Assembly: GCA_026702845.1 (NCBI GenBank)
Contig: JADCLS010000012.1
Coordinates: forward strand, 62,001-126,000
Length of the DNA stretch: 64,000 nt
Direction of reading: 5' to 3'
Source: Candidatus Heimdallarchaeota archaeon
Lineage (GTDB): Archaea > Asgardarchaeota > Heimdallarchaeia > Heimdallarchaeales > Kariarchaeaceae
Shown here: positions 36,766 through 62,445 of the stretch, piece after piece
How positions within the stretch are numbered: the first letter of the stretch is position 1
How the letters are laid out: each line of letters begins with the position of its first letter
Made by a program: the position numbers and the translations under genes
The notes under the pieces: generated by a model
The model's input: the letters and a program-made list of their open reading frames with translations, nothing else
What the model was told of the DNA's origin: nothing
The model's database searches: none

Positions 36766-38067
36766 ATGAGATTCATCCTGAATGCTAAAATGGTGGAAAC
36801 AACCACTATTACCAAACCATTACTTGATGTCATAAGAGATCTGCAATATAAAGGAACCAAACTGGTATGTAGAGAGGGAGATTGTGGGGCATGTACAGTG
36901 TTGCTTGGAACTCTATCCGATGGTAAGGTTCATTATCAAACTGTTAATTCATGTATTCTTCCAGTTGGAAAAGCGGCTGGTAAACATGTCATCACCATTG
37001 AGGGTCTACTACCGAATAAGATCCAGGAACTCTTGGTGGAGAGAAATGGTACACAGTGTGGATTCTGTACACCTGGATTTGTGCTTAGTCTGAGTTCTGC
37101 CATAATTAATAATCAAGATCCCCTGATGCATGTAGATGGAAATATATGCCGATGCACAGGATATACCTCAATTCTGAAGGTTATTGAAGATCTTAAAGGG
37201 ATTGAGCTGAGCATAGATGAAATTCTCCCTTCGTATCATCCCCCCATGGCTGAGCAATTACATCAGATCCAAAACAAGGCTGATTCAGGTGCGAGTGGCA
37301 AATTTATTGCTGGAGGAACTGATTTGTATGTTCAGCAATATCATCATCTTGTAAGTCAAAGTAGTGAGTATACAATACTCGAGTTGAATAAGGAAATCAG
37401 AACACTAGATGAAGAAATTCACCTTGGGTCCGGAGTTACAATGAATCAGCTCATATCGTATTGTAAGGACCATAATGTAATTGACACGACAAACATGGAT
37501 CTCATTGCCAGTACACCTATAAGAAATTCAGCCACCATCGCAGGTAATCTGATTAATGCATCTCCGATTGGTGATTTCACAATTATTCTATTAGCTTTGG
37601 ATGCAGCTATTAAAACAAATAAAAAAATTCTGAAATTGGATAAATTTTACCAGGGATACAAGAAGCTTGATCTTGGTAATGAAGAAATTATTGAGACAAT
37701 TCTCATACCACGTATTGACGGACAATTTTCCTTTGAGAAAGTTTCCAAAAGACAGTATCTTGACATAGCCTCTGTCAATTCTGCATGTTATATTAAGATT
37801 TCAGATAATACTATACAATCCATCAGGCTATCTGCAGGTGGTCTATCACCAATTCCCCTTTTTCTCAAAGACACATCTAACTATCTGATGGATAGACCCA
37901 TCACTTCTGAAGTATTAATCAAAGCTCTAGATATCGCAGATAAAGAAATTTCACCCATATCAGATATCCGAGGAAGTGCAGGCTACAAACGATTATTACT
38001 CAAACATCAGATTCTAGCTCATTTTGAGAGATTAGCTGAAATCGACCCCATGGAGGTATTAGGATGA
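36766..38067 (+). CDS. xdhA: Xanthine dehydrogenase small subunit, [2Fe-2S] and FAD domains
   Basis: 433 residues. Four-cysteine plant-type cluster CREGDCGACTVLLG plus C in NSCIL, second cluster CGFCTPGF and DGNICRCTGY, then the FAD domain with FIAGGTDLYVQ and TPIRNSATIAGNLINASPIGD. This fused iron-sulfur/FAD layout is that of two-subunit bacterial XdhA. It carries electrons from the molybdenum subunit to NAD+ or another acceptor. The ATG at 36766 gives the normal N-terminus. The next gene overlaps by 4 nt (ATGA) after an internal GGAGGT Shine-Dalgarno-like sequence. Confidence 0.94.
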   Translation: MRFILNAKMVETTTITKPLLDVIRDLQYKGTKLVCREGDCGACTVLLGTLSDGKVHYQTVNSCILPVGKAAGKHVITIEGLLPNKIQELLVERNGTQCGFCTPGFVLSLSSAIINNQDPLMHVDGNICRCTGYTSILKVIEDLKGIELSIDEILPSYHPPMAEQLHQIQNKADSGASGKFIAGGTDLYVQQYHHLVSQSSEYTILELNKEIRTLDEEIHLGSGVTMNQLISYCKDHNVIDTTNMDLIASTPIRNSATIAGNLINASPIGDFTIILLALDAAIKTNKKILKLDKFYQGYKKLDLGNEEIIETILIPRIDGQFSFEKVSKRQYLDIASVNSACYIKISDNTIQSIRLSAGGLSPIPLFLKDTSNYLMDRPITSEVLIKALDIADKEISPISDIRGSAGYKRLLLKHQILAHFERLAEIDPMEVLG

Positions 38068-40289
38068 AAAACATAGATTCCAAGAGGCATGTAACTGGGA
38101 AATCTGTCTATGTGGATGATATACCTGAATTATCAAATACACTGCATGCACAAGTGGTTTACTCATCCAAAGCACATGCGGAGATTATATCAGTATCCAT
38201 TGAAGATGATCCAAGACTGTTAGGGTTTATTACTGCAGGGGACATTCCGGGTGAAAATCAAGTTGGTGGAATAATTCCAGATGAGGAATTGTTAGCCGAT
38301 AAGATTACTGATTATCAGGGTCAACCCATTGCTATCGTTATTGCAAAAACCAAACTGGAGGCACAACTGCTAAGAGATAAGGTGCATGTGGAATACAATG
38401 AACTTAGGATTATTACAGACCCACGTGAGGCTTATGAGCAAAATCAGCTAATAATGCCACCTCGTACCATTGGAATGGGAAATATTGATGCTGCTTGGGA
38501 TGATTGCTCTCTGATTATTGATGGAAAAGTAGAACTAGGAGGACAAGAACACCTATATCTAGAGACTCAAGGAGTATATGCAATCCCTAATGAAAGTGGA
38601 ATGAAAATTATCTCCTCCACCCAAGGCCCAACTCAGGTACAGAAAGCTGCTTCCCGAGTGCTTAGCCTACCTATGCATACAATCGAGGTGGATGTACGGA
38701 GGCTAGGTGGTGCATTTGGTGGAAAGGAAGATCAAGCCACCCCTGTTGCCTGTATTGCCGCATTAGCAGCACATATAATGAAACATCCTGTGAAATACAT
38801 ACTTGACAGGCATGATGACCTAAAATCCACAGGAAAAAGACATCCTTACTCAGCAGATTATAAAATTGGAATGAAAAACAACAAGATCCATGCCTATGAA
38901 GTTACATTCTACCAGAATGCAGGTGCTGCTGCTGATCTCTCTCCTGCTGTGCTGGGTAGAACACTATTTCATGCAACTAATAGCTATTTCATACCGAATG
39001 TAAAGATTACTGGAATATCTGCTAAAACTAACCTACCCCCAAATACTGCATTCAGAGGATTTGGTGGGCCACAGGGTATGTTTGTCATAGAGGCAGCTCT
39101 TCACAAGGTTGCAGATGTTATGGGTATCAGCAGAGAAGAGTTACAGTTCCACAATCTTCTGGTAGATGGTGATGAGTTTCCTTACGGGCAGCAAGTAGAA
39201 TTTGTATCCTTATCATCTGCTTGGAAGCAATTAATTGAGAATACCACTGAATTACGCAATGCTATTACTTCTTTCAACAAGCAATCCAAAATGATCAAAA
39301 AAGGTTGGGCCATCATGCCAGTAAGTTTTGGGATCAGCTTCAACAACCTTGTGATGAACCAAGCCTCTGCCTTGGTTAATATCTACAGTGATGGTAGTGT
39401 GGGAGTATCGACAGGAGCTATTGAGATGGGGCAGGGTGTTAATACAAGGATAGTTCAGGTGGTAATGAATACTTTTGGAATAACTGAAGATAAAATAAAG
39501 ATGGAGACTACAAATACTATTCGGGCAATCAATACCTCTCCATCCGCTGCAAGTTCCACACATGATTTGAATGGATGGGCAACAGAAAATGCCTGTACTC
39601 TTCTTAGAAATCGATTATTGGATGCAATTGAGGAAAAATCAAAATTCATGGAGATCAAATTTGAAAATAATAATATCTTGTCTTCAGCAGGAGAAGTATT
39701 GATGAGCTGGGAGGAACTAGTACAGCTGGCTCTTTCCCAACGAATTGATCTTGCTGCACATGGATACTATGCAACTCCCAAAATTCATTATGATAATTCA
39801 ATTGAGAAGGGACATCCCTTTGCGTATCATGCCTTTGGTGTGGCTTTGGTATCTGCCACTGTTGATTGTCTTCGAGGGATATATAAGCTAGATCATGTGG
39901 AAATTGTGCATGATTCAGGTAAGATGCTCAACTCAGACCTAGATCTTGGACAGATAGAAGGTGCATTGGTGCAGGGTTTGGGATGGATGCTGTTGGAGGA
40001 ATTGAGGTATGATGAAAAAGGTAGATTACTATCGAATTCACTCTCAACATACAAAGTACCTGATATTCACTTTGTTCCCACCATCCATACCAATTTTATA
40101 GGTCAGGATAATCCACTTGGATTAATGGGCTCTAAGGCAGTTGGAGAACCCCCACTCATGTATGGAATAGCAGGATATTTTGCTATAAGAAATGCAATGA
40201 ATAGCTTCAAACCATTGAAAATGCCCTATGATACACCTTTAACTCCTGAAAAAATATTATTAGGTCTCTGGAATACATCCGCTAACTGA
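38064..40289 (+). CDS. xdhB: Xanthine dehydrogenase molybdenum-binding subunit
   Basis: 741 residues. Residues matching the bovine XDH active site are present: E222 in GGAFGGKED (E802), R299 in LGRTLFH (R880), R331 in NTAFRGFGGPQGM (R912) and the catalytic base E695 in GSKAVGEPPL (E1261). This set predicts genuine hypoxanthine/xanthine oxidation, not an aldehyde or CO oxidase. Moco is bound by the C-terminal domains. It is coupled to xdhA and is the best functional anchor for the purine-catabolic reading of the region. Confidence 0.95.
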   Translation: MKNIDSKRHVTGKSVYVDDIPELSNTLHAQVVYSSKAHAEIISVSIEDDPRLLGFITAGDIPGENQVGGIIPDEELLADKITDYQGQPIAIVIAKTKLEAQLLRDKVHVEYNELRIITDPREAYEQNQLIMPPRTIGMGNIDAAWDDCSLIIDGKVELGGQEHLYLETQGVYAIPNESGMKIISSTQGPTQVQKAASRVLSLPMHTIEVDVRRLGGAFGGKEDQATPVACIAALAAHIMKHPVKYILDRHDDLKSTGKRHPYSADYKIGMKNNKIHAYEVTFYQNAGAAADLSPAVLGRTLFHATNSYFIPNVKITGISAKTNLPPNTAFRGFGGPQGMFVIEAALHKVADVMGISREELQFHNLLVDGDEFPYGQQVEFVSLSSAWKQLIENTTELRNAITSFNKQSKMIKKGWAIMPVSFGISFNNLVMNQASALVNIYSDGSVGVSTGAIEMGQGVNTRIVQVVMNTFGITEDKIKMETTNTIRAINTSPSAASSTHDLNGWATENACTLLRNRLLDAIEEKSKFMEIKFENNNILSSAGEVLMSWEELVQLALSQRIDLAAHGYYATPKIHYDNSIEKGHPFAYHAFGVALVSATVDCLRGIYKLDHVEIVHDSGKMLNSDLDLGQIEGALVQGLGWMLLEELRYDEKGRLLSNSLSTYKVPDIHFVPTIHTNFIGQDNPLGLMGSKAVGEPPLMYGIAGYFAIRNAMNSFKPLKMPYDTPLTPEKILLGLWNTSAN

Positions 40290-40330
40290 ACAATATTGGA
40301 AGAACTTACTGTGTCACTGATCATCAACTC

Positions 40331-40338
40331 CTTATAAC
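40331..40338 (+). promoter_or_regulatory. TATA box of the second EamA transporter gene
   Basis: CTTATAAC is centred 25 nt before the GTG at 40359, supporting a leaderless mRNA separate from xdhAB. Confidence 0.6.
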
Positions 40339-40358
40339 CATCAAATTGAATAACAATT

Positions 40359-41258: not shown

Positions 41259-41341
41259 TTTCGAAGAGATCTAGGATGATGGTTTGGGGCAATCCATAAG
41301 CTCTAGCTTCTTAAATTAACGAACGAATGAACCTTCGAGTT

Positions 41342-42730
41342 ATGTCAATAATTATCTCCAATGGAACAGTCGTGAGTGATAATGAGATCAAACAGGTGGA
41401 TATTGGCATCAAAGATGATAAAATTGTAGCGATAGAAAAGAATCTTGAATCATCAGAATATTCCACTGTCATCGATGCTACTGGGAAGTATATATTCCCA
41501 GGCTTTATTGATCCGCATGTACATATCAAATTACCCATGAGAGGAACCTTTTCACAGGATGATTTCTACTCAGCCACAAGAGCTGCAGCTGCAGGTGGCG
41601 TAACAAGCATCATCGATTTTGCCACACAAATGGGAGATCAAAGCCTAGAAAATGCAATTGAAGAGAGACATAGAGAAGCTCGAGATAAAGTGGTTATTGA
41701 CTATGCACTTCATGGAGGGATTACTGAGTGGGATCGGGTCAAATCAGAACTGAATATGATAATACAACATGGTGTTAGTTCATTCAAAATGTTCATGGCA
41801 TACAAGGAAAGAGGATTATACTCATCTGATGAGGATATCGTAGCTGCGATACGAGCAACCAAGGATCTTGGGGCGATGATAATGCTACATGCAGAATCAG
41901 AGGAATTACTTACCCCATTGCTACAGAGATATGGATCTGAAGAGATGAAGAAGAAACATGGTGTGTTGGCACATGTTTACTCTAGACCCCCTCAAACTGA
42001 GTTCAGAGCCATTGAAAATGCAGTGGGAATGCTTGAGGAGGCCCAGGGTAATCTGTATATCGTTCATATTTCTACTAGAAAGGGTGCAGAATGGATAAGA
42101 GTTGGTCGAGACAAAGGACTCAATATCATTGGAGAGACCTGTCCACAATATTTGATGTTTAATGAGGATGTATTTTCACAACAAAATGGACACTATTTTG
42201 CCACCGCACCTCAGATCAAATCAGAGGACGATAGAAAGGGATTATGGAAAGCCATTCAGAAAGGTGATCTTCAGATTATCGGTACAGACAGTGTTGCATT
42301 TACTAAGGAACAGAAGGATTCTTGGAATAATGATTTCATGGAGATCCCCCTGGGAGTATCCGGGACTGAACTCATGGCCCCCCTACTCTACACCAAGGGA
42401 GTTCTAGAAAAAAAATTATCATTAACTGATTTTGTCAATTTTCTTAGCACACATGCTGCTAAGGTGTTTGGGATGTACCCCAAAAAGGGAACCATTCAGG
42501 TTGGATCAGATGCAGATATTGTCATTTTTGATCCTCAGAAGAAGAAAACCATACATCATGCTGATCTGTACACACCAATCGATTGGAGTGCATACGAGGG
42601 TTGGGAACTACAAGGTTTTGCCGATACAGTGATTCTTAGGGGTACGATAATTTATATGAATGATAAAGTGTTAGCACCAGCAGGATATGGAGAGTATATT
42701 CGACGTGGTGCGTCTGGAAATTATCTCTAG
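41342..42730 (+). CDS. Cyclic amidohydrolase, D-hydantoinase/dihydropyrimidinase family (HyuA-like)
   Basis: 462 residues from the ATG at 41342 (in-frame ATG at 41327 adds five). Binuclear-metal ligands are H59 and H61 in DPHVHIK, carbamylated K149 in SFKMFMAYK, HAESEE and VHIST; ETCPQYL and GTDSVAFT complete the family. It opens cyclic amide or ureide rings such as hydantoins, dihydropyrimidines or allantoin. Similarity in length and order to E. coli HyuA and its place next to xdhAB and xdhC suggest purine-ring breakdown. The stop overlaps xdhC's in CTAG. Confidence 0.9.
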   Translation: MSIIISNGTVVSDNEIKQVDIGIKDDKIVAIEKNLESSEYSTVIDATGKYIFPGFIDPHVHIKLPMRGTFSQDDFYSATRAAAAGGVTSIIDFATQMGDQSLENAIEERHREARDKVVIDYALHGGITEWDRVKSELNMIIQHGVSSFKMFMAYKERGLYSSDEDIVAAIRATKDLGAMIMLHAESEELLTPLLQRYGSEEMKKKHGVLAHVYSRPPQTEFRAIENAVGMLEEAQGNLYIVHISTRKGAEWIRVGRDKGLNIIGETCPQYLMFNEDVFSQQNGHYFATAPQIKSEDDRKGLWKAIQKGDLQIIGTDSVAFTKEQKDSWNNDFMEIPLGVSGTELMAPLLYTKGVLEKKLSLTDFVNFLSTHAAKVFGMYPKKGTIQVGSDADIVIFDPQKKKTIHHADLYTPIDWSAYEGWELQGFADTVILRGTIIYMNDKVLAPAGYGEYIRRGASGNYL

Positions 42731-43671
42731 GCATTTTTGAATTGAATAAGCTGTGCACAGATACTGATTGCGATCTCCTCTGCAGTGGAATCATTAATGG
42801 GGATTCCAATAGGAGCTTGTACCCTATCAAGTTTAGCCTGTGATACACCTTTCTCCTTCAGCTGTTTGAAGATTTTGGCAATCTTGGTTCTACTTCCCAT
42901 TAGGCCAACAAATCCTAAATCCTTATTGATCACTGCATCGAGTACCTGAGCATCATACTCCATTCCAAAAGTTGCAATAATGACAAAGGATCTATCACTA
43001 CTGGGAACAGTTCCAGCTAAATCTGGATAAGAACCGATGAATTTCTCATGAGCATACTCATTTTCATTGAAAATGGTTAAGAAATCTCGATTATCATAGA
43101 GTTTGATGTAGAAATCTAGAGTAGAGAGAATCCGTGTGATCGCATAACCCACGTGACCTGCTCCAAACATATACACTGTGTATGGTTCTCCCATCATCTC
43201 TTGAAACTTCCAAGGATCAGATGTAAATAGTATCGTACCGGTTCCTCCTTTCTCAAACTCGATTCCATGTTCATCCAGAGAGAATAATCCTGATTCTGGA
43301 TAGCCATAGCAATTCAAAATGGATTCCACCACAGGGAGGTGAGTATGTGTTAGCTGCATCAACACATTGGTTTGAGTACCAGAACATATCAGACCAGACT
43401 GTTGATTCTCTGGTGCTTTAGTGTTATGATCCTGAATTCTCAGTAGTGGAGTTGAATTGCCATCTGAAAGCATGCTTCTTGCAAGATCCACCATTTTCAT
43501 CTCCATGATTCCTCCTCCTATCGAACCTACAGTGATGGAATTGGTAACCATCATCTTAAAACCCTGTTTTCCAGGTGAGCTACCCATATGATCAACAACC
43601 ACAATTAAGATACAGCTCCTCTCTTCACGTATAGCCTTCCTAATTGCCTTCCAGATGCGATAATTCCTCAT
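42727..43671 (-). CDS. xdhC: XdhC/CoxI-family molybdenum-cofactor insertion protein
   Basis: 314 residues. N-terminal DHMGSSPGKQGFKM and TVGSIGGGIMEMKM are the XdhC motifs; the C-terminal Rossmann part has VYMFGAGHVGYAI and GLMGSRTKI. XdhC binds Moco, supports its sulfuration and delivers it to xanthine dehydrogenase. It probably serves both molybdenum hydroxylases in the window. It forms a minus-strand unit with mocA, 86 nt upstream, and the amidohydrolase before it. Confidence 0.94.
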   Translation of the reverse strand: MRNYRIWKAIRKAIREERSCILIVVVDHMGSSPGKQGFKMMVTNSITVGSIGGGIMEMKMVDLARSMLSDGNSTPLLRIQDHNTKAPENQQSGLICSGTQTNVLMQLTHTHLPVVESILNCYGYPESGLFSLDEHGIEFEKGGTGTILFTSDPWKFQEMMGEPYTVYMFGAGHVGYAITRILSTLDFYIKLYDNRDFLTIFNENEYAHEKFIGSYPDLAGTVPSSDRSFVIIATFGMEYDAQVLDAVINKDLGFVGLMGSRTKIAKIFKQLKEKGVSQAKLDRVQAPIGIPINDSTAEEIAISICAQLIQFKNA

Positions 43672-43757: not shown

Positions 43758-44327
43758 TCAATATGACTGCAAATCGTTCTCTGTATCAATATCATGATGA
43801 ATTAGTGAATTCCGCGTTGTATATAATCCCAGTGAGTCACACTGATTAAGAATACCTCGTAATCCCTGTGGATTATCTGCACCTTCAATAATTAAAGGGA
43901 TGGAGCTGGAATTTACCAGAACGGGATGTCCTCTCTTTTGTTGATAATATGGTACTACCATATTATGGTTTTCAAGTAAGACCTTCATACCCATCAGATC
44001 TTCGGGAATAATACTAGGAAAATCAGCTGGATGAATGAACACACCATCAATATCAGAATCCAGAGAATTGAAACCACAGAGAATTGATGAAAGCATTCCA
44101 CCCAGCTCATAATTTTCATTGTAACAGATACGTATCTCAGAATTAGATAGATAGGATGATAGTTCATCATGATAGGCACCAGTCACCACGATAATGGTTT
44201 CCACATGTGCTAGAAAAGAATCAATAGAATGCTGGATTAGCGGTTTTCCTTTCAAATCTTCAAGTAATTTATTGGTACCAAACCGTGTTGCCTTACCAGC
44301 TGCTAGGATGATAGCTGCAAACCTCAT
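43758..44327 (-). CDS. mocA: Molybdenum cofactor cytidylyltransferase (MocA-like)
   Basis: 189 residues, MobA-like nucleotidyltransferase fold. LAAGKATRFGTNKLLEDLKGKPL is split by the nucleotide-binding loop, and HPADFPSI provides the metal-binding aspartate; KRGHPVLV and NPQGLRGIL are MocA-type. It likely makes the molybdopterin cytosine dinucleotide used by bacterial molybdenum hydroxylases. The start is 3 nt downstream of the end of the amidohydrolase gene, and xdhC follows, so this is a tight cofactor-maturation unit. E. coli YgfJ is the corresponding cluster member. Confidence 0.92.
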   Translation of the reverse strand: MRFAAIILAAGKATRFGTNKLLEDLKGKPLIQHSIDSFLAHVETIIVVTGAYHDELSSYLSNSEIRICYNENYELGGMLSSILCGFNSLDSDIDGVFIHPADFPSIIPEDLMGMKVLLENHNMVVPYYQQKRGHPVLVNSSSIPLIIEGADNPQGLRGILNQCDSLGLYTTRNSLIHHDIDTENDLQSY

Positions 44328-44330
44328 GGC

Positions 44331-45794
44331 TCATCCTTTAATACCAGTTTCCAGTGCAACCTCTTTGCCTTCCTTGTACTTCTCGAAGAGATCAGCCAGT
44401 TTGAGTATATCACTAATGACTGATTCATACTCCAGAGTGAGAAATGCATAATTCTCGAGTAACAATTTTCCATTGGCAACAACATCTCGAATTTCATTAC
44501 CTGACGACGCCCAGATAAGATTCTCCACCACAGTCTCCTTTCTTGTTGGAATCATATTGGGTTTATTCAGATCAAAGAGAATGAAATCTCCATCCTTACC
44601 AGCCTCCAACGTTCCAGCATTCAATCGCAGAATATCAGCTGGTATTTTGGTGATTCTTAATAAGACATCCTCTGCCTTCATAACTTTAGCATCCTTGTTG
44701 AATGCTTTCTGGTACTGAGAGGCCAGACGTGCGGCAGCAAGAATATTTTGGTTATCAGCAGATCCAGAGCCATCTGTTGAGATCGCCAATGGAATTCCCA
44801 TTGCCATCATCTCCATAATTCTAGGCATACCTGAACCAAGAATGGTGTTTGCGAGTGGGTTGTGGATTATCTTTGTTCCAGTTTTTTGTAGCAAATTCAA
44901 ATCATTATCAGTGCTGTTGACTTGATGTGCTAGAATCGCATTTTCATCTAGAAATCCAATTGAATGAGCATACTCGACAGGGGTCATGCCATATTTCTCT
45001 GTAAACCACTTGGTAGTATTGGGTTCTTCAGAAGAATGAATGTGTATCAATTTATTATGCTCATCTGCCCATTTTTTCAGAGCCTTGAGCAACTCTGGTC
45101 CGTTGGAGAACAGTTGATCAGGCCCTGGAATGATTATACTACGTGACTTGTCACCATGTTTTCTCTCATAAGCATCTAGTCTTGCCACAGCTTCATCAGG
45201 TGTATCTAGAATTCGAGAATCATAATTCCGATCCTGAGAACCAACAGCAATGTACAATCTTGTTCCAGCCTGCTCATTTGCCTCTACGAGCTCATCAGCA
45301 TGATATTTATTGAAATTACAGTGATGAGTAAGTGCGGAGGTGATACCAAATTGAATATCATCCATACGTGCTTTGAGATATGCGACTAAATAGGGTGATT
45401 TGCCAAATTGCTCAGTTAATTCAGCTTCCTGCTCATGCAACATTCCTGTGAAGTGATTCACTGCCTTGTCAAGCCAAGAAGTAAGAGGTTCATCCTTGGC
45501 TACACCAATTAATACACTCTCATGATCATGGCCATGGCCTTTAATAAAACCTGGTAAAAGCACTGCATTATTCATGATCAGATCTTTGAAGGTTGCATTG
45601 TTGACATCATTACCAATAATTTTCAGGTTATTACCATAGGTCTTGATAATTCTCTGTCCAATTTCCTCTGAGAATTGGCCAACTTCTAGGATCCTCTCAC
45701 CCGTCAGGATATAACCATCCTCAATTCGATCCAACAAGCCATTGCTCTGTGTCATGGGGATGAGGAACTTGGCTCTTGCAAATATAACAGTCAT
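44331..45794 (-). CDS. Metal-dependent amidohydrolase, possible purine/ureide deaminase
   Basis: 487 residues from the ATG at 45794; the frame extends to 45854, but MTVIFARAKFLIP is the family-like N-terminus. The first metal motif is PGFIKGHGHDHES (H87, H89, H91) in place of the usual NxHxH; other landmarks are LTHHCNFN, IHIHSSEE, AHQVNS and STDGSGSADNQN. This is the cytosine/guanine-deaminase branch of the superfamily, and the HGHDH variation is unusual. Position with mocA and xdhC suggests a purine-related substrate. Guanine deaminase activity is one option but unproven. Confidence 0.8.
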   Translation of the reverse strand: MTVIFARAKFLIPMTQSNGLLDRIEDGYILTGERILEVGQFSEEIGQRIIKTYGNNLKIIGNDVNNATFKDLIMNNAVLLPGFIKGHGHDHESVLIGVAKDEPLTSWLDKAVNHFTGMLHEQEAELTEQFGKSPYLVAYLKARMDDIQFGITSALTHHCNFNKYHADELVEANEQAGTRLYIAVGSQDRNYDSRILDTPDEAVARLDAYERKHGDKSRSIIIPGPDQLFSNGPELLKALKKWADEHNKLIHIHSSEEPNTTKWFTEKYGMTPVEYAHSIGFLDENAILAHQVNSTDNDLNLLQKTGTKIIHNPLANTILGSGMPRIMEMMAMGIPLAISTDGSGSADNQNILAAARLASQYQKAFNKDAKVMKAEDVLLRITKIPADILRLNAGTLEAGKDGDFILFDLNKPNMIPTRKETVVENLIWASSGNEIRDVVANGKLLLENYAFLTLEYESVISDILKLADLFEKYKEGKEVALETGIKG

Positions 45795-46007
45795 ACTCGG
45801 CTTCAATCGATTATTTAATGTTCTTAGAATTAGTCTTGTGGTAATCTCACCCAAATAGGATTAATAATTTACTGAACTTTGCAACCCTGTCGATAATTTG
45901 CTAGGAGAAATAAAACGATAGTTTAGAGACAAGCAACTTATTTTTTAATCTCCATGGATAATGTTGGTTCTATACAATAGCAATTCGCCCCCTTGGTTGA
46001 ATGTATT

Positions 46008-46285: not shown

Positions 46286-47119
46286 ATGCTTACAAACTTA
46301 AAGAAACACGAATATCCCTCATCAATAGAAGAGGTACTAAAATTGCTGGAAAATCCCAAATCAAAGATACTAGCAGGGGGTACGTCTCTCTCACTTGAAT
46401 CTAATGACAAGATAGAGACCCTAATCGATCTTCAACAGGTTAATTTATCATATATTAAGGATAAAGGCGATTACTTTGCTATAGGGGCCATGACCACAGC
46501 GATTGATATTTATGAACATGCAGAGTTACCAGAACCTCTAAAAGTTGCAGCAAATTGTGTTGGAGACACTCCGATAATGAATGCTGTAACCATTGGAGGT
46601 AACTTGGCAAAATTTTATTACTGGGTGGATCTTCCACCCATGCTCTGGGCACTGAATGCATCATTCATACTCTATACTCCTGAGAAACAGGTGATGAATG
46701 CAGATGAATTTTTTGCATATGCTATTGAAAGCAATATTGCAACTCGTGGAGATCTTATTGTAGAAATTCAGATACCCAAGATCCCAGAAAATGCATTTGC
46801 TAGTTATCAATCATTTTATACCACAGTAAATGAGAAATCGCAGCTAAACTTAGCTGGTTATTTTGAATGGTCAGATGGAAAGGTATCAGTAGCCAGAATA
46901 ATTCTTGGTGGATCATCGGGTAAATTTAGCAAACTATCAAAGACTGAGGCCAAATTCCTTGAGGGTGTAAGTATTGATGAGTTGATGAGCACTGCCAGAG
47001 GAGAGGTTATACTTGGTAAGAGCTACAAGACATCAGTAGAGTACAGAACTCATATCCTCGGCGTCTATATCAAGAGAATGTATGAGGAGTTAATAAAGAA
47101 AATGGAGGGTTCTCAATGA
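46286..47119 (+). CDS. FAD-binding subunit of a second molybdenum hydroxylase (CoxM/YgfM-like)
   Basis: 277 residues. FAD motifs are KILAGGTSLSLES and TPIMNAVTIGGNLAKFY, the latter resembling TxxNAxxxGGNL of CoxM/XdhB-like subunits. A GGAGG sequence 10 nt before the ATG at 46286 acts as ribosome-binding site. It follows the MoaD-like gene by 20 nt and overlaps the iron-sulfur subunit gene in ATGA. YgfM is the corresponding E. coli protein in the purine cluster. Confidence 0.92.
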   Translation: MLTNLKKHEYPSSIEEVLKLLENPKSKILAGGTSLSLESNDKIETLIDLQQVNLSYIKDKGDYFAIGAMTTAIDIYEHAELPEPLKVAANCVGDTPIMNAVTIGGNLAKFYYWVDLPPMLWALNASFILYTPEKQVMNADEFFAYAIESNIATRGDLIVEIQIPKIPENAFASYQSFYTTVNEKSQLNLAGYFEWSDGKVSVARIILGGSSGKFSKLSKTEAKFLEGVSIDELMSTARGEVILGKSYKTSVEYRTHILGVYIKRMYEELIKKMEGSQ

Positions 47120-47583
47120 AACTAGTTACAACCATAAATGGAGAGCGTAAAAGCTTTGAAGTAGAACCAAATACATTATTAATGGATTTTCTACGACATC
47201 ATGGGTATTATGGAGTGAAAAATGGATGTGCTGAGGGTACTTGTGGATCCTGCACTGTGTTAATTGACAATAAACCCATGAAATCATGTATACTCTTTGT
47301 TGGTCAAGTGCAGAATAAATCGATTACCACCATTGAGGGACTTGGCACACCGGAGCACCCTCATCCACTGCAAGATGAATTTGTAGAGTTTGGAGCTGTT
47401 CAGTGTGGTTACTGTATTCCAGGAATGATACTATCTGCACATGCTCTGCTTCTCAAGAACCCAGATCCCAGTGAAGAGGAAATCAAAAGGGGATTAGATG
47501 GCAATTTGTGCAGATGCACAGGATATGTCAAGCAAATAGACGCAGTGAAAGCTGCTGCTAAACGAATTAAGGAGGAGAATTAA
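47116..47583 (+). CDS. [2Fe-2S] subunit of the second molybdenum hydroxylase (CoxS-like)
   Basis: 155 residues. CAEGTCGSCTVLID with a following C in KSCIL binds the plant-type cluster, and CGYCIPGM plus DGNLCRCTGY binds the second. It transfers electrons between the molybdenum and FAD subunits. The ATGA overlap with the upstream gene and a strong AAGGAGGAG before the downstream start show operon coupling. Confidence 0.96.
   Translation: MKLVTTINGERKSFEVEPNTLLMDFLRHHGYYGVKNGCAEGTCGSCTVLIDNKPMKSCILFVGQVQNKSITTIEGLGTPEHPHPLQDEFVEFGAVQCGYCIPGMILSAHALLLKNPDPSEEEIKRGLDGNLCRCTGYVKQIDAVKAAAKRIKEEN
47569..47577 (+). promoter_or_regulatory. Strong Shine-Dalgarno sequence before the molybdenum-subunit gene
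   Basis: AAGGAGGAG ends 7 nt before the ATG at 47585. It contrasts with the leaderless first genes and shows that internal operon genes use ribosome-binding sites. Confidence 0.75.
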
Positions 47584-47584
47584 A

Positions 47585-49987: not shown

Positions 49988-52156
49988 TTGAAGGCCACAT
50001 CGTACCAATATATCAAACAAATTATGCCATATTTGGATATGCTTTTAATATTGGTACTTAGCGAATTATTTTCATTGTATCGTGGCTATGAATTAATCCT
50101 GTACTCACTCATCCTGTTCAGTATCCTACATTCTCAATTTGTATTCATGAACAGAGTATCGAAGATAAAAACTGGGATCTATTCATTATATCTTGTATTT
50201 CGCTTCAATTGGTATTCCATTCCTATTATCCTTTTCATGATTGTATTCACCATGAACATGGAGAGACAAAAACAATCAAACATCAAGGATGAGATACAGG
50301 AAATGATCTGGAATATCACCGATGATATTGTGTTTGTTAAGGACAAAGATCTTAGATATGTAAAGGTGAATTCTGCTTTGGAGAAGTTTTTTAAGAAGGA
50401 GAAGAATCAAATCCTGGGAAAAACTGATTTTGAGGCATTCCCAAATGAGGCAAAATACTATAACGATGGAGACAAGAGAGTTCTAGCATCAAAAGAATCA
50501 GAAACAACCTATGAAACTTCAGTCTTGAATGGGATTGAACGTTCAATGATGACGATAAAACAACCAATAATTGATAAGCAGGGTGATGTCATAGGGATAT
50601 TTGGTATTGCTAGGGATATATCAGTTCTGGATAGAGTATCAAAGGAATTGGAGGAGAGTAATGAGCTATTGGAAAGAATCTTTGAATTTGCTCCAGATCC
50701 AATCTTTCTCAAGTCGCTTGATGGTAAATATTTGAAGGTCAACGCAGCATTTGCCAAAATTCATGATATGAAAATTGAGGAAATTCAAGGTCTACGGGAT
50801 GAGGAGTTATTTGATGCAGTTATTGCTGAAAAATTCAAAATCACAGATAGGGAAGTACTTGAAAAAGGAAAACCAGTCATAAACCAAACTACTACAAAAA
50901 TCAATAACAATATCATAACAACTGTAGCGACCAAATCTCCACTTGTAAATAGCAAAGGAGAAATTTCAGGGATTATTGGTGTTGTACATGATATCTCCAA
51001 TCTGACAAATCTTGAGAATAAAATTATTGAAACACAAAAAATGGATTCTGTTACAAATCTTGCTGCAGGTGTTGCTCATGATCTCAATAATATCCTCACT
51101 GGGGTTCTGGGATATGGTAGTGTATTAAAAGAAATTGAGGAGAATGAGGAGAAGCTTGAATTTGTGGATAATATAATCTCAGCCACAAAACAGGCTACAG
51201 AATTAATTAACAAACTCATGTTATTTACAAATCAAAGTAGATCAGTGGAATCCTCACAGATTGATATCAATGAAGTTGTGGAAAATACTTACAAAATCAT
51301 TCAACCATCTATTAGTAAGAATATCAAATTTTCATTTGATCTTTCAGATTTACCTGCAGTATCTGGTGATGTAACACAGATTAATCAGATTATTCTTAAT
51401 TTACTTATTAATGCAGTAGAGGCAATTGAAGTTGATGGAGAGATTGCTATATCAACATCAGTGGAAAGAATTCATGAATTTAGTTCATTTAGATATTTAT
51501 CTCCTTCGATTTCACCCGGACAATTTATTAAATTCAAGATATCAGATACTGGAACTGGAATACCACAAGATATACAAAATCGAATTTTCGAGCCATTTTT
51601 CTCTACTAAATCTCATACAAGAAGTAAAAAAGGCACCGGACTAGGGCTAGCGATAGTATACGGGGTGGTTACAAAACATGGTGGATTAATTAATCTAGAA
51701 TCTGAAGTGGGCAAAGGGACATTAATTGAGATATACTTACCTGCAGGGGGAACTCTTGAAAATCCCTTGAAACCTGCAGAGAAACTTATACAAGGAGATG
51801 GTACGATTCTCTGTATCGATGATGAAGACAGTATTCATGTATTACTAAAAAATATGCTCCCAAAGCTAGGTTTTACTATCATTTCAGCATATAATGGCAT
51901 GGAAGGAATAGAATTATTTCAGAAACATAAGAATGCACTTGTAGGAGTGATCTTGGATCTTACAATGCCTGAAATGAATGGCAAGGAAGTATTCCAGAAG
52001 ATAAAATCAATTGATAGTGGTGTCAAAGTAATATTATCCACTGGATATGGTAAGCAGGTAGATCTGGATAGTTTAAAAGCAGAAGGAATACTGCATGTAC
52101 TTCCCAAACCTTATACTATATACGAGCTATCTGCAATCCTTGCGAAAATATATTAA
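49988..52156 (+). CDS. Hybrid sensor histidine kinase with two PAS domains and a receiver domain
   Basis: 722 residues. Three membrane helices lie within residues 1-95, then two PAS domains (about 105-220 and 230-340). The kinase follows: phosphoacceptor H in GVAHDLNN near 360, N-box LINAVEAIE, G1 DTGTGIP, F-box IFEPFFSTK and G2 GTGLGLAI. The C-terminal receiver has CIDDED, phosphoacceptor D in LDLTMPEMNG, and the KP in LPKPYT. It is a bacterial-type two-component sensor; no output regulator gene is adjacent. The TTG start has only a poor TATA match. It overlaps the NAT gene in TTAA. Confidence 0.92.
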   Translation: MKATSYQYIKQIMPYLDMLLILVLSELFSLYRGYELILYSLILFSILHSQFVFMNRVSKIKTGIYSLYLVFRFNWYSIPIILFMIVFTMNMERQKQSNIKDEIQEMIWNITDDIVFVKDKDLRYVKVNSALEKFFKKEKNQILGKTDFEAFPNEAKYYNDGDKRVLASKESETTYETSVLNGIERSMMTIKQPIIDKQGDVIGIFGIARDISVLDRVSKELEESNELLERIFEFAPDPIFLKSLDGKYLKVNAAFAKIHDMKIEEIQGLRDEELFDAVIAEKFKITDREVLEKGKPVINQTTTKINNNIITTVATKSPLVNSKGEISGIIGVVHDISNLTNLENKIIETQKMDSVTNLAAGVAHDLNNILTGVLGYGSVLKEIEENEEKLEFVDNIISATKQATELINKLMLFTNQSRSVESSQIDINEVVENTYKIIQPSISKNIKFSFDLSDLPAVSGDVTQINQIILNLLINAVEAIEVDGEIAISTSVERIHEFSSFRYLSPSISPGQFIKFKISDTGTGIPQDIQNRIFEPFFSTKSHTRSKKGTGLGLAIVYGVVTKHGGLINLESEVGKGTLIEIYLPAGGTLENPLKPAEKLIQGDGTILCIDDEDSIHVLLKNMLPKLGFTIISAYNGMEGIELFQKHKNALVGVILDLTMPEMNGKEVFQKIKSIDSGVKVILSTGYGKQVDLDSLKAEGILHVLPKPYTIYELSAILAKIY

Positions 52157-53017: not shown

Positions 53018-54169
53018 ATGAATGCTCATCACCAAGATTTACTTGAGTTGTTGCAAGGATTGATAAAGATCAATTCGGTGAACCCAATGTTAGATAGTAA
53101 TGCACCTGGAGAATTAGAAATTACATCCTATCTTGGTAAATACATGGAAAAAATGGGATTAGAAGTGCATTATCAAACTATTGAAGAAAATCGAGCAAAT
53201 GTGATAGGCATACTTCGTGGTAAAGGAGGAGGAAAATCGTTGATGCTCAATGGTCATCTGGATACGGTTGCAGTTGGTCAAATGAAAGAGCCATTCACTG
53301 CAAAATATGAGGAAGGCAAGATTTATGGTAGAGGAGCAATTGATATGAAATCGGGTGTTGCATCCATGATCTATGCAGTAGAAACGATTATGCAACAAGG
53401 AATTGCACTCAGAGGAGATGTCATAATCACTGCAGTCATTGATGAGGAGTATGCCTCAATAGGTACTGAAGAGGTACTTAAAGAATACAAAGCTGATGCG
53501 GCAATAGTAACTGAACCTACTGATTTACAAGTATGTGTTGCTCATAAGGGATTTACCTGGACAAAAATATCAGTATTTGGGAGAGCAGCTCATGGAAGCT
53601 TGCCTGATGAGGGAGTTGATGCTATAGTGAAGATGGGCAAGGTTTTAGTTGCCCTTGAGGATCTGCAGAACAAAGTTTTTCCAACCATTACACATCCAAT
53701 CTTGGGAAATCCATCGATTCATGCTTCACTAATTGAGGGTGGAACAGGATTGAGTACTTATCCAGATAAGTGTGTGCTTCAGCTAGAACGTCGATTACTC
53801 CCTTTTGAGAGCAGAAAAGATGTGGTCGATGAGATGAAAAAACTAGTAGATAGCATAAAACAATCAGATCTTGATTTTGATGCTGATGTTGATGTTTTCT
53901 TTCATCGTCCAGGTCTTGAAATAGATAGGGATCATGCCTTAGTTGTAGCACTATCAAAATCCTATAAAAATAACATGAACAAAGGGGCTACGTATATGGG
54001 AGTTAACTTCTGGATGGATGCTGCCCTTATTGCGGATGCTGGGATTCCTTGTGTTGCCTTTGGACCTACAGGAAAGGGGTTACATGCAGATATTGAGTAT
54101 GTGGAATTTGATTCTGTAATCCAATGTGCGGATATATTGACTAAAACAATTATTGATTATTGTGGGTAA
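53018..54169 (+). CDS. M20-family hydrolase (ArgE/DapE/YgeY-like)
   Basis: 383 residues. Metal ligands are H80 in LNGHLDTV, D109 in GRGAIDMKSG, the DEEYASIGTEE glutamates and TEPTD; GPTGKGLHADIEYV closes the family pattern. The dimerisation domain is intact (GRAAHGSLPDEGVDAI). It deacylates an N-acyl amino acid or opens an amide. YgeY in the bacterial purine cluster belongs to the same family, but this sequence is closer to general ArgE/DapE proteins. GAAGAGG seven nt before the ATG is a fair ribosome-binding site. Confidence 0.9.
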   Translation: MNAHHQDLLELLQGLIKINSVNPMLDSNAPGELEITSYLGKYMEKMGLEVHYQTIEENRANVIGILRGKGGGKSLMLNGHLDTVAVGQMKEPFTAKYEEGKIYGRGAIDMKSGVASMIYAVETIMQQGIALRGDVIITAVIDEEYASIGTEEVLKEYKADAAIVTEPTDLQVCVAHKGFTWTKISVFGRAAHGSLPDEGVDAIVKMGKVLVALEDLQNKVFPTITHPILGNPSIHASLIEGGTGLSTYPDKCVLQLERRLLPFESRKDVVDEMKKLVDSIKQSDLDFDADVDVFFHRPGLEIDRDHALVVALSKSYKNNMNKGATYMGVNFWMDAALIADAGIPCVAFGPTGKGLHADIEYVEFDSVIQCADILTKTIIDYCG

Positions 54170-56109: not shown

Positions 56110-56141
56110 TCATCCGTTATAATTTAAAATTTGGGAGAAGG

Positions 56142-56957: not shown

Positions 56958-57064
56958 TATGATATATCAAAATTAGTAGCTTAAAAATATACTGTAGTCC
57001 TAATTTTCAAATTGATAGGATGAGTATTATTCAAAATTAATTATTGGTGTTTGATAAGGTGGTT

Positions 57065-58078
57065 TCAGACACCTTTTCCTCTATTATTGATCATGAGAGT
57101 AAGTAGAGCCTTTTGAGCATGTAGCCTGTTCTCAGCCTGATCCATGGTCCGTGATTGTGGACCGTCAATGACATCATCAGTTACTTCTAGCCCTCGATCC
57201 ACAGGTAAACAGTGCATATAGATGGCTTCAGGGTTGGCTAATTTCATCTTCTTGGCATCAACAATCCAGTCTTTGTGAGGTTGTTGCATCTCTGCGGCCT
57301 TATCCATATCAGGCATCGCTTTGAGCGAACCCCAGTTCTTGGCGTATATCACATGTGCATCCTTCATTCCCTCCTTCATATCATTGGTGATGGTGAACTT
57401 GCCACCTGACTTTACAGCAGCCTCTTCAGCCTCTTTGATTACATCTGGATCAAGCTCGAATCCCTTAGGATGGGCCAGAGTTACATCCATTCCCAATCGT
57501 GTCATGAGCGAGACGAGAGATTGTGGAACAGCTACAGGACGAATGTATTTCCCATAGGCCCAGGAAACCACAATCTTCTTGCCTTTGAGATCATTTCCAA
57601 AATTCTGTCTGATCGTTTGCCAATCAGCCATAACCTGGCAGGGGTGGAACATATCGCTCTCCATATTGAGCACAGGTACGCCTGAATGCTCAGCGTAAGT
57701 CTCTAGAATCTTGTGAGAATCACCATACTTATCTTCAGGTCTGATGAAACAATGTCGTACTGAAATAGCATCTCCATATCGAGATAGCACACCTGCAGTG
57801 TCCTTTATTACTTCACCGATGGATTCCTGTAAGGCAGATGGGTTGAGAGTATGTGTTTCGCCACCCAGCTGTGTCATAGCAGACATGAAACTCGTTCTTG
57901 TTCTGGTGCTTGCGTTGTAAAAAATCGAGAATAAGGTACGAGCTGCGAGTAATTGATTGTGCATGTATCCTGCTTGTCGTTCAAGTTTGAATCTCTCAGC
58001 AAGTTCTATTACAGCCTTCAATGACTGCATGTCCCAATCTCTGGTTGCTAAAAAATCTTTGGGAAATATTGATTCCAT
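57065..58078 (-). CDS. Knotted carbamoyltransferase (YgeW/N-acetylornithine carbamoyltransferase-like)
   Basis: 337 residues. Carbamoyl phosphate binding: STRTRTSF (57-64) and HPCQ (145-148); second-domain landmarks are SWAYGKYIRPVAVPQSLVSLMTR split over the knot region near 173-193, IYAKNWGSLK, and MHCLPVDRGLEV. These follow YgeW and AOTCase/SOTCase, not ordinary ornithine carbamoyltransferase. In bacteria YgeW sits in the purine cluster and its relatives make or phosphorolyse carbamoylated products. The TATA-like CTTAAGTTTT (minus strand, about 58103-58113) is about 30 nt before the ATG. Exact substrate is uncertain. Confidence 0.85.
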   Translation of the reverse strand: MESIFPKDFLATRDWDMQSLKAVIELAERFKLERQAGYMHNQLLAARTLFSIFYNASTRTRTSFMSAMTQLGGETHTLNPSALQESIGEVIKDTAGVLSRYGDAISVRHCFIRPEDKYGDSHKILETYAEHSGVPVLNMESDMFHPCQVMADWQTIRQNFGNDLKGKKIVVSWAYGKYIRPVAVPQSLVSLMTRLGMDVTLAHPKGFELDPDVIKEAEEAAVKSGGKFTITNDMKEGMKDAHVIYAKNWGSLKAMPDMDKAAEMQQPHKDWIVDAKKMKLANPEAIYMHCLPVDRGLEVTDDVIDGPQSRTMDQAENRLHAQKALLTLMINNRGKGV

Positions 58079-58190
58079 AGAACCTAGCTTTCTCCAATCG
58101 CTTGAAAAACTTAAGTGCCATAATCAAAACAATTGACATGATTTATACTATTATTACATTAATATCCATACTCATGGTATCGTTATTCCC

Positions 58191-58251
58191 TTGAACCTGG
58201 CATATACTATTTTATCTGTTAAAATTTATTCATTTTAACAGACAGGTTCAA
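58191..58251. repeat. Nested perfect inverted repeats upstream of the carbamoyltransferase gene
   Basis: Outer arms TTGAACCTG (58191-58199) and CAGGTTCAA (58243-58251) enclose inner arms CTGTTAAAAT (58216-58225) and ATTTTAACAG (58232-58241) with a 6-nt loop. Both are perfect. The element lies between the HTH gene's 3' end and the carbamoyltransferase promoter, about 80-140 nt upstream of the latter's likely TATA box. Confidence 0.8.
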
Positions 58252-58289
58252 CTGACAATAAGATATTATCATATATTCTGATTTTTCTA

Positions 58290-59015: not shown

Positions 59016-59058
59016 TATTTGAAAGGATTTACTAAAGGCTTTAGGATGAACAAAAAAC

Positions 59059-59130
59059 TTTATATTAATTTAGTCAGTACTGTGATACTAACAACTAAAT
59101 TAGTCAGTATGAATTCCAAAAATACTGACT
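59059..59130 (+). promoter_or_regulatory. Promoter with palindromic operator before the aldo/keto reductase gene
   Basis: TATA-like TTTATATTAA at 59059-59068. A perfect 9-bp inverted repeat AGTCAGTAT (59102-59110) and ATACTGACT (59122-59130) has an 11-nt spacer; a further half-site TAGTCAGTA lies at 59071-59079, directly after the TATA box. The expected transcription start is near 59090, so a protein bound here would block the promoter. The divergent HTH protein is the obvious candidate. Confidence 0.75.
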
Positions 59131-59148
59131 TAATATAAGGTGATTGAA

Positions 59149-60168: not shown

Positions 60169-60219
60169 GTTTTCAATTTTTATATAATCAAATTACATTT
60201 CCTTTTGATACAATTATAC

Positions 60220-61014
60220 CTATTCCTCCTTCCAATAATACATACTAAATGGTGTTGGATCGGAATACCCAATTTTCTCTGCAAGCAAAGATGAAGGTTC
60301 ATTCATTGAGACCCAAATGGGGATGAGGTTATTTTTCAATGCAAATTGCGTAATTTTTGCACCTAATGCTGTAGCTAGACCGTTCCTTCTGTATTCCTGT
60401 TTAGTTTCGATTTGAATATCCACATACTTATCAATCTCCAAAACAGAACAAGCAAATGATGTGAGTGAGTTATTGTGAAAGATTCCAAAGGAAATACCAT
60501 TCTTCAAGAATTGATTTGTGTCCTTGAAGAATTTGCTTATTATCTCATTTATCATCACTTCAGATGTAATATCTCCTTCATTCATCCTACGTAGAACATA
60601 TCCATCAGGGATTGCTTCAATGAATGATTCAAGATAGTTTATTGATTTAGTATACTTGAACTCTTTTCGAGTAAATTTCTCCAGATTGGGCCAGCAGTCT
60701 TGAAGGTTCGGCAACCATTTTGCATCTGCTAGAACAATATTCATTTGTGGAATTTTCCTCAGCAGTATTCGTGCCATTTCACTAGAATAATCCCCAGTTA
60801 TGTAATGTATAATATTGATAGAAAATAATACAACTGTAGGATATCTAAGATTATCTGTGTACCCATACCCGTTATCTGGTATTGTTTCAAGCATCGATTT
60901 ACCATAATTAAAAGAATCAAAATATTGAATAAACTCACCCATCTTTTCATTTGGAATCCTAATAAAAGGCTTCATATACTCTTCTGTTAACATATCAAGG
61001 AGATCATCAAGCAA
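60220..61014 (-). CDS. GNAT-family acetyltransferase with N-terminal extension
   Basis: 264 residues. The C-terminal GNAT domain (about 140-264) has the acetyl-CoA loop EYRRNGLATALGAKI and NEPSSLLAEKIGY. The first 130 residues, with MLDDLLDMLTEEYMKPF and aromatic-rich SFNYGKSMLE, resemble the GNAT_acetyltran (zwittermicin-type) pattern. Substrate unknown. It is convergent with the aldo/keto reductase gene across 51 nt. Confidence 0.8.
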   Translation of the reverse strand: MLDDLLDMLTEEYMKPFIRIPNEKMGEFIQYFDSFNYGKSMLETIPDNGYGYTDNLRYPTVVLFSINIIHYITGDYSSEMARILLRKIPQMNIVLADAKWLPNLQDCWPNLEKFTRKEFKYTKSINYLESFIEAIPDGYVLRRMNEGDITSEVMINEIISKFFKDTNQFLKNGISFGIFHNNSLTSFACSVLEIDKYVDIQIETKQEYRRNGLATALGAKITQFALKNNLIPIWVSMNEPSSLLAEKIGYSDPTPFSMYYWKEE

Positions 61015-61104
61015 GAATATTTAAATTCAATGCAACTAAGTAATTCAGCATTAAACTAGATCGTCAATGGTAATAACCTTGGAGTATAATGTTGTATAAG
61101 CAGA

Positions 61105-62445
61105 CTATAAATCTTGTACTCTCTTCCATACTCCCTCAGCAAGTTCACGAGCCTTCTCATGAATTTCATTCTCATTAACTCCCACAAGTAGGTGATTGAG
61201 CATACGTATATCACCATTGATTATTGTTGAATGTACAGGTTCATTGATGACACCAAACATGAAATGACCAGCCGTATTATCAGAATTTACAGGCGTTTTA
61301 GGTCGATAATCAGAGATCATCACATCTGCTTTATATCCAGCAATCAATTTACCCACCTTGACACCCATAGTTTTCTGTACGATTACAGGGTTCTGATATA
61401 TCAATGCATTATATGGCTCAATAAAACCAACAGTATTATTTTTCCTGTGATGTTTCTGCAGTAATGGTCCTGACATAACTTCAGCCTTCATATCAGCACT
61501 CATACCATCAGTACCCAAACCTGCTTGTACATCATGCTCCAAAAGGGTTTCAAGATTAAGCATTCCAACGGCATTATTCATGTTTGATCTAGGTTGATGG
61601 GTGAGATTAGCACCAGAAGAGGCCAGTAGATTGTAATCATCTGGAGACATGTAAATTCCATGGGCAAAAATCGCCTTCTCATTCAGTAAATCATGAGAAT
61701 TGAATCGCTGAAGGGTAGTCATATTGTACTCCCTCTTAGCATGCTCCATATCTGCTGTACCCTCATCCAGATGGCTGTGAATACCTGTATCGAGCTCAGA
61801 TACTATCTGTGAAGCATGGTCCAAGGTATCCTTATCCACTGTGAACGAGGCATGCAATCCTAATAGGCCAGAGAACATATCATCTCCTTCCTTCTGTTTT
61901 GCCCTGATGTAATTCTCATTCTCCTTCAGACCCTCATTTGCACCATCTTTTCCATTTCTATCTGTAACTTCATAACACAGGTTGGATCGTACTCCCAACT
62001 CCCTACCCGCCTTCTCTATCTGGTTGAGACTACCAGAGATATAACTTGGACTGGCATGATGATCTATTACTGTAGTAGTACCACTTCTCACCGCTTGAAT
62101 GTACCCTAGTAATGCTGAATAATACACATCTTCCTTGAGTAGTGCTCGATCAAGCTTCCACCAAAGATTCTCTAGTACTTCAACAAAACCGGGGGGAAAT
62201 GGCTCAAGAGGCATACCAGTAGCAAAGGCGGAATAAAAATGCATATGTGCATTGATCAAACCAGGCATGACCACTCTTCCATCTGCATCTATCTCCATAT
62301 CCACCTCAGGGTATTTGGATACTATTTCATCAGTTGATCCCAGATCCTTAATGAGATCCTCATCGAGATACAGGGCACCATCCTTAATCACCCTATTCTT
62401 CTCATCATGGGTGATTAGATAGCCATTTTTTATTATTATCGACAT
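61105..62445 (-). CDS. ssnA: SsnA-like aminohydrolase
   Basis: 446 residues. Metal motif GLINAHMHFYSAFATGM with H67 and H69, then WWKLDRALLKEDVYYSALLGY (split here by family spacing), TTTVIDHHASPSYISGSL, HASFTVD, SHLDEGTADMEH, AHGIYM and GLGTDGMSADM. This order is characteristic of SsnA, the aminohydrolase of the bacterial purine/selenium-linked cluster. The expected role is deamination of a purine ring or derivative. It is divergent from the LLM oxidoreductase gene across 442 nt. Confidence 0.88.
   Translation of the reverse strand: MSIIIKNGYLITHDEKNRVIKDGALYLDEDLIKDLGSTDEIVSKYPEVDMEIDADGRVVMPGLINAHMHFYSAFATGMPLEPFPPGFVEVLENLWWKLDRALLKEDVYYSALLGYIQAVRSGTTTVIDHHASPSYISGSLNQIEKAGRELGVRSNLCYEVTDRNGKDGANEGLKENENYIRAKQKEGDDMFSGLLGLHASFTVDKDTLDHASQIVSELDTGIHSHLDEGTADMEHAKREYNMTTLQRFNSHDLLNEKAIFAHGIYMSPDDYNLLASSGANLTHQPRSNMNNAVGMLNLETLLEHDVQAGLGTDGMSADMKAEVMSGPLLQKHHRKNNTVGFIEPYNALIYQNPVIVQKTMGVKVGKLIAGYKADVMISDYRPKTPVNSDNTAGHFMFGVINEPVHSTIINGDIRMLNHLLVGVNENEIHEKARELAEGVWKRVQDL

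Follow-up and report, generated by a model that had tools for sequence, protein, structure and literature searches.

A conserved gene cluster with a probable role in reductive urate degradation in an Asgard archaeon

We analysed a stretch of 64,000 nucleotides from a Candidatus Heimdallarchaeota archaeon (assembly GCA_026702845.1, contig JADCLS010000012.1, positions 62,001 to 126,000), hereafter the window. Between positions 36766 and 62445, a first-pass annotation made from the letters alone had described a counterpart of the bacterial anaerobic purine-degradation cluster. Our main finding is that this cluster is real and conserved, and that its function is probably the reductive degradation of urate. 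We consider it likely to be an Asgard (Heimdallarchaeia-type) variant of the pathway, in which a luciferase-family protein of F420 type would act as yanthine reductase. If so, a pathway described as restricted to bacteria would extend to the archaea most closely related to eukaryotes, the F420-type yanthine reductase that has been proposed would gain a concrete gene beside its proposed partner SsnA, and purines from dead biomass would be a possible source of carbon, nitrogen and energy for uncultured Asgard archaea. Family membership, individual residues and synteny are the basis of this reading; the reactions and substrates named below, and the dependence on F420, are all predictions.

According to the portion on which we draw of a 2025 biochemical report on the enzymes of E. 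coli and Clostridioides difficile (PMC12507026), XdhD reduces urate to yanthine, which YgfK or the PydA-like UacX reduces further; ring opening by SsnA and HyuA comes next, YgeW or UacY and YgeY strip the ureido groups, and YgeX cuts. This biochemistry, with urate, yanthine, SsnA, HyuA and a carbamoyltransferase, makes the purine reading concrete. 'Archaea' is not a word of the main text of that report, a commentary confines the pathway to selected anaerobic bacteria in the part we cite (PMC12990295), and no report of an archaeal reductive urate pathway was found among the matches listed from the open-licence literature.

In the scheme that we favour, xanthine dehydrogenase (XDH) would convert xanthine to urate, and an XdhD-type enzyme with FAD and iron-sulphur (Fe-S) subunits would yield yanthine by taking away the 6-oxygen of urate. 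The luciferase-family reductase encoded beside ssnA would dearomatise yanthine in place of YgfK, probably with reduced F420. SsnA would then open the ring to ureidomethyl-hydantoin, the hydantoinase would turn this into diureidopropionate, and a knotted carbamoyltransferase would split off a ureido group phosphorolytically, yielding carbamoyl phosphate. Cleavage of the last ureido group by an M20 hydrolase is a guess, as is a final lyase step by a PALP enzyme that neighbours the reductase in the related genome G034 and would lie beyond the end of the window. For the steps up to SsnA, the prediction draws on curated families, on synteny and on a single active-site residue singled out by modelling.

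By its profile scores and its place in a tree, the protein encoded at 61105 to 62445 (minus strand), which would open dihydro-yanthine, is a true SsnA. Scored in bits against the curated family cut-off, as are all profiles below, it exceeds both SsnA models (509 versus 444 for PRK07203, 470 versus 455.5 for TIGR03314). The first-pass annotation had noticed an SsnA pattern and had named subfamily membership in trees as a check on it. In a 75-row tree, the window protein, its G034 homologue and 39 database rows form one 41-row branch (support 100/100), which nests in the SsnA part of the tree alongside E. coli SsnA and bacterial rows; the window protein is split at 100/100 from the other two amidohydrolases of the window and from guanine deaminase. 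In the protein list (best 120 of 1417 matches), identity falls from 52% at the 39th row to 45% at the next, and bacterial names occur only below this gap. Similar gaps delimit the 'Asgard-type' rows in the lists for the reductase (best 120 of 7968) and the carbamoyltransferase (best 120 of 1514); Asgard names stand on 9 of 39 such rows for SsnA, 8 of 23 for the reductase and 7 of 21 for the carbamoyltransferase, and bacterial names on none. The closest named relatives of SsnA and of the reductase in these lists are metagenome-assembled genomes (MAGs) of Kariarchaeaceae, Heimdallarchaeota and Hodarchaeales. Counting two rows as one contig when their longest-contig sizes are equal, the Asgard-type SsnA would share a contig with the reductase in 6 of 39 rows, with the carbamoyltransferase in 5 and with both in 3.

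Synteny carries the argument from single genes to the cluster. In G034, a genome of the same order as the Heimdallarchaeota MAGs YT1_048 and YT1_029, contig C450 holds the large subunit gene of XDH (xdhL, 50% identity), an amidohydrolase between XDH and XdhD (63%), the XdhD trio (FAD subunit 55%, Fe-S 78%, molybdenum 82%), a kinase directly after XdhD (53%) and, at the contig end, the C-terminal part of the carbamoyltransferase (85-86%); XdhC (36%) is there too, on the other strand and in another place. Contig C308 has the first 57 residues of the carbamoyltransferase (77%) at its end, then SsnA (71%), the reductase (86%) and a PALP protein. Both contigs break inside one carbamoyltransferase gene, which suggests that they are neighbours. 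In that case nine genes keep the same order and strand in the window and in G034, the divergent pair of ssnA and reductase being arranged alike in both. Since these nine genes recur in an independent genome, their grouping appears to be more than chance. The expectation of the first-pass annotation that the genes stay together in relatives was borne out for most of the set, and failed for the hydantoinase and the M20 hydrolase.

What had been called a second molybdenum hydroxylase can be specified further: its closest relative and one residue make it an XdhD-type enzyme. Its FAD subunit (46286 to 47119; PF00941), 2Fe-2S subunit (47116 to 47583; PF01799 and PF00111) and molybdenum subunit (47585 to 49924) are encoded in this order on the plus strand. 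The last of these, predicted to convert urate to yanthine, is closest to E. coli XdhD (42% identity, versus 35% to XdhA). Among solved structures it is best matched by 4-hydroxybenzoyl-CoA reductase, which catalyses a reductive dehydroxylation. The subunit stays under the curated XdhD cut-off (TIGR03313, 720 of 1101.9 bits), a 951-position model of a fused Fe-S/molybdenum protein, the two parts being split in the window; the FAD subunit, a candidate counterpart of YgfM, reaches 47 of 241.5 bits for TIGR03312 and is 26% identical to E. coli YgfM. Glu606 of XdhD was singled out by modelling in the urate-to-yanthine enzyme, in the portion of PMC12507026 used here. Of 12 aligned rows, 7 have its equivalent: E. 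coli XdhD, an Ignavibacterial protein, the window subunit and its four Asgard orthologues from G034, G008, G048 and G051. It is lacking in E. coli XdhA, in the second G051 paralogue and in three XDH proteins (those of the window, G034 and G015). Among 227 genomes of the Asgard phylum, 13 have the molybdenum subunit at E ≤ 1e-100, 11 of them at 57-82% identity. A hybrid PAS sensor histidine kinase, whose place is conserved in G034, follows at 49988 to 52156 (plus strand).

The candidate yanthine reductase was missed by the first-pass annotation; its gene (62888 to 63913, plus strand) lies just beyond the end of the region then described and is separated from the divergent ssnA by 442 base pairs (62446 to 62887). 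It is a luciferase-family protein (PF00296, 207 bits) whose leading NCBIfam rows are F420 families, and its confidently predicted structure (pLDDT, the predicted local distance difference test, 90.6) has fold matches led by F420 enzymes. The F420 gene product CofD is over its cut-off in G034 and in 27 of the 35 genomes of the order of G034. Use of F420 by the protein is probable; gene place and family point to yanthine reduction as the F420-dependent step. The absence of ygfK had led to the suggestion that the archaeal route could end differently. The absence stands: YgfK is not among the 49 different window proteins covered by a Pfam scan (14 of the 63 open reading frames of at least 100 residues, all 14 of at most 160, were left out), and it exceeds its cut-off in none of the 227 genomes and in 1 of 14 controls, partial matches below the cut-off occurring in 226. 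Replacement of YgfK by the luciferase-family protein beside ssnA is the better reading. In the available portion of PMC12507026, SsnA clusters of Chloroflexota without YgfK and UacX are said to contain a putatively F420-dependent luciferase-family protein, and that family is proposed as the YgfK substitute for yanthine reduction. Anaerolineales and Anaerolineae are among the named bacteria closest to the reductase and the carbamoyltransferase, among the matches listed.

A number of observations weigh against the reductive urate reading, and several concern the reductase. It belongs to an enormous family (at E ≤ 1e-70, 7968 of 8000 candidates qualify), and of the 9 Asgard genomes that carry it, 8 have no true SsnA, so that its link to yanthine is one of place only. 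In stretches from six of the SsnA-less genomes it does not occur together with XdhD, in two genomes it adjoins PALP, thiolase and amino acid permease genes, and no match to CofE was found in G034. The protein might instead be a methylenetetrahydromethanopterin reductase (Mer) or some other F420 enzyme unrelated to purines, Mer being its closest curated family and first among the solved structures. It nevertheless falls below both Mer cut-offs (186 versus 276 and 178.5 versus 348.7 bits) and is the divergent neighbour of ssnA in the window as well as in G034, and we hold this alternative to be rather unlikely.

A second set of points concerns the knotted carbamoyltransferase (57065 to 58078, minus strand), which in the reductive urate pathway would release carbamoyl phosphate from a ureido group. 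It had been described as knotted and like YgeW or N-acetylornithine carbamoyltransferase. The knot holds: an alignment, read by the criteria in the part of PMC4581275 that we use, reveals the proline-rich loop. So does the second likeness, by a small margin (NF003384, 290.7 versus 288 bits). Identity with YgeW was rejected, the protein being far under the YgeW cut-offs (208 versus 453 and 201 versus 500 bits) and placed by a tree in an Asgard-only branch separate from YgeW; in that tree the branches of E. coli YgeW (2.34) and ArgI (2.79) are long, so the places of these two rows are unsure. The alignment shows neither the additional terminal helices of YgeW nor its extended 240s loop, protein and loop being shorter. 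One could then suppose an N-acetyl- or N-succinylornithine carbamoyltransferase of arginine synthesis that is here by chance. These enzymes have a Trp in the 80s loop (PMC4581275, Table 1, as consulted), which is not present in the window protein; here Gln84 aligns with Gln98 of YgeW, and Lys247 opens the 240s loop, as the YgeW criteria in the same portion of that source require. No arginine gene is recognised around the carbamoyltransferase, whose linkage to SsnA recurs in G034 and on further contigs. A role in arginine synthesis seems to us unlikely.

The composition of the cluster provides the remaining points against a reductive urate pathway. A true SsnA occurs in 1 of the 227 genomes, and the window has no recognised purine permease. 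The XDH small subunit, HyuA, MocA and the M20 hydrolase are missing from contigs C450 and C308 of G034: its HyuA homologue (49%) is on the non-syntenic contig C419, and the best match to the M20 protein, at only 31%, is elsewhere in the genome, the M20 gene thus not being conserved. The PALP family found beside the reductase in G034 is present in 84 of the 227 genomes and is therefore not specific to the pathway, and the window ends before any such PALP. The scattered genes would suit a purine-salvage neighbourhood of XDH, deaminase-like amidohydrolases, hydantoinase and transporters with no single reductive pathway, as would the non-pathway genes in the region (EamA, MFS, NAT, aldo/keto reductase, GNAT and alpha/beta hydrolase) and the low G034 identities of xdhL and XdhC, by which the XDH part is only loosely bound to the cluster. 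However, the XdhD trio, kinase, carbamoyltransferase, SsnA and reductase hold their order and strand in G034 while the intervening genes differ, and we judge a salvage neighbourhood decidedly improbable. We retain the reductive urate pathway as the likely explanation.

The other genes were mostly assigned to the right families from the start: every gene named by the first-pass annotation is an open frame where it had been placed and belongs to the named family. XDH, predicted to convert xanthine to urate, is encoded on the plus strand by a small Fe-S and FAD subunit (36766 to 38067) and a molybdenum subunit (38064 to 40289). Both stay below the cut-offs of their best-scoring models (TIGR02963, 289 versus 467 bits; TIGR02965, 750 versus 849.5), although residues Q161, E222 and E695 of the molybdenum subunit agree with the canonical XDH pattern in an alignment. 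This subunit has relatives of 48-56% identity at 28 loci of the contig database, mostly in Bacteroidota/Ignavibacteria-type MAGs and in two Heimdallarchaeota. It is 54-56% identical to proteins of these bacterial-type MAGs versus only 50% to the syntenic G034 copy, and this closeness hints at replacement of the window subunit by transfer. The XdhC-family maturation factor (42727 to 43671, minus strand; PF13478 and PF02625) and the MocA-type molybdenum cofactor cytidylyltransferase (43758 to 44327, minus strand) each have their own or a sister family as top scorer, below the cut-off (NF045664, 184 versus 350 bits; TIGR03310, 114 versus 186). The HyuA-type D-hydantoinase/dihydropyrimidinase (41327 to 42730, plus strand), which would open ureidomethyl-hydantoin, exceeds its cut-off (TIGR02033, 437 versus 393 bits); it matches D-hydantoinase structures at 336 bits and is 33% identical to E. 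coli HyuA. The second amidohydrolase (44331 to 45854, minus strand), conserved in the cluster, is outside the SsnA part of the tree; its solved relatives include 8-oxoguanine deaminase (104 bits), and it is perhaps a purine deaminase.

For the end of the pathway the candidates are weaker. The M20 protein (53018 to 54169, plus strand), a weak candidate for the ureido hydrolase, fits an ArgE/DapE deacylase model (TIGR01910, 273 versus 217.6 bits), in keeping with its first description as an M20 hydrolase; as a YgeY counterpart it was discarded (186 versus 321 and 156 versus 321.5 bits). The absence of ygeX and carbamate kinase from the window was correctly noted: no carbamate kinase is among the Pfam-scanned proteins, no genome-wide search having been made, and the sole PALP of the window (30216 to 31190), considered as YgeX, was rejected as a threo-3-hydroxyaspartate/serine/threonine dehydratase type, itself below cut-off, with 24% identity to YgeX over 195 residues. 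YgeX exceeds its cut-off in 10 of the 227 genomes, G034 not among them. As a marker of the same cluster it was dismissed: in the six of these ten genomes examined (G140, G131, G139, G148, G132 and G136; L144-L149) it lies away from recognised purine genes, the sole other reference-set match beside it being dihydrolipoamide dehydrogenase, in two stretches. The PALP protein directly after the reductase in G034 (L039, 2691 to 4160) has 489 residues and no curated family. A homologue (55-56%) stands in the order xdhS-xdhL-PALP-HyuA-SsnA in Melioribacter (L015), and likewise, from a cut xdhL onwards, in Ignavibacteriales (L022). In G010 this PALP adjoins hydantoinase-type genes, judged by coordinates.

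Elsewhere in the window, AMP phosphorylase, cited in the first-pass annotation together with an MtaD-like deaminase as a sign of purine scavenging, exceeds its cut-off (541 versus 535 bits), while the MtaD-like protein (13852 to 15177) exceeds none of the listed curated ones. AMP phosphorylase, prefoldin, FtsY, an archaeal-type D-aminoacyl-tRNA deacylase and RadA mark the window as archaeal. An 808-residue protein at 8017 to 10443 has no Pfam match at 1e-6.

Related gene sets were seen in other Asgard genomes. Heimdallarchaeota YT1_029 (L025, 1785 to 9962) has in a row an SsnA-family protein (359 of 444 bits, on a long branch of the SsnA tree and unsurely placed), a PydA/dihydroorotate-dehydrogenase-like Fe-S protein, a threonine-synthase-like PALP, XDH and XdhC; this may be a second archaeal form of the urate pathway, belonging to the Clostridioides type. 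G064, G067 and G068 (L116, L041 and L042) have distant SsnA-like and MtaD-like amidohydrolases, two different knotted-type carbamoyltransferases, a number that would match a substrate carrying two ureido groups, and a threonine-synthase-like PALP, followed in L116 and L041 by a PydA-like protein; G006 has an SsnA-like protein with a PydA-like one. In G015 (L117, contig C62, 2011 to 13428) we found, at short distances from one another, a hydantoinase, aspartate-type and knotted carbamoyltransferases, a carbamate kinase (374 versus 358 bits), a selenium-dependent-type XDH (862 versus 830 bits) and a MocA-like protein; several related genomes likewise have hydantoinase and carbamoyltransferase in close vicinity. 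It is conceivable, and we put it forward tentatively, that Asgard archaea hold several separately assembled reductive purine modules: an F420 type (window and G034), a PydA/UacX type (YT1_029), a type with two knotted carbamoyltransferases, PALP and PydA-like protein (G064, G067 and G006), and one in which carbamate kinase and selenium-type XDH accompany hydantoinase and carbamoyltransferases (G015). On that view the group would draw energy from purines, with ATP coming from carbamoyl phosphate.

Compared with known systems, the claimed likeness to the E. coli cluster (ygeWXY-hyuA-yqeAB-mocA-ygfK-ssnA-ygfM-xdhD) stood for SsnA, XdhD and the hydantoinase and fell for YgeW and YgeY. The two clusters share SsnA, a hydantoinase, the XdhC and MocA families, a knotted carbamoyltransferase and an XdhD-type enzyme ordered FAD subunit, then Fe-S and molybdenum parts. 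The window differs in being archaeal, in having no YgfK, YgeX, YgeY or carbamate kinase in view, in a carbamoyltransferase outside YgeW, in separate Fe-S and molybdenum genes and in its division into several short units. With the C. difficile type, defined by PydA-like UacX and by UacY, it has the SsnA-based reductive scheme in common, but no PydA-like protein is present in the window region. The Melioribacter and Ignavibacteriales loci L015 and L022 resemble it in an XDH about 53-54% identical to its own, SsnA, a hydantoinase and the G034-type PALP family, and differ in that no PF00296 reductase was recognised in the stretches examined. The SsnA clusters of Chloroflexota, unlike the window, are not archaeal, and the comparison follows the published description in the part of PMC12507026 used here rather than proceeding gene by gene; in place of YgfK or UacX they have, like the window, a PF00296 protein next to SsnA.

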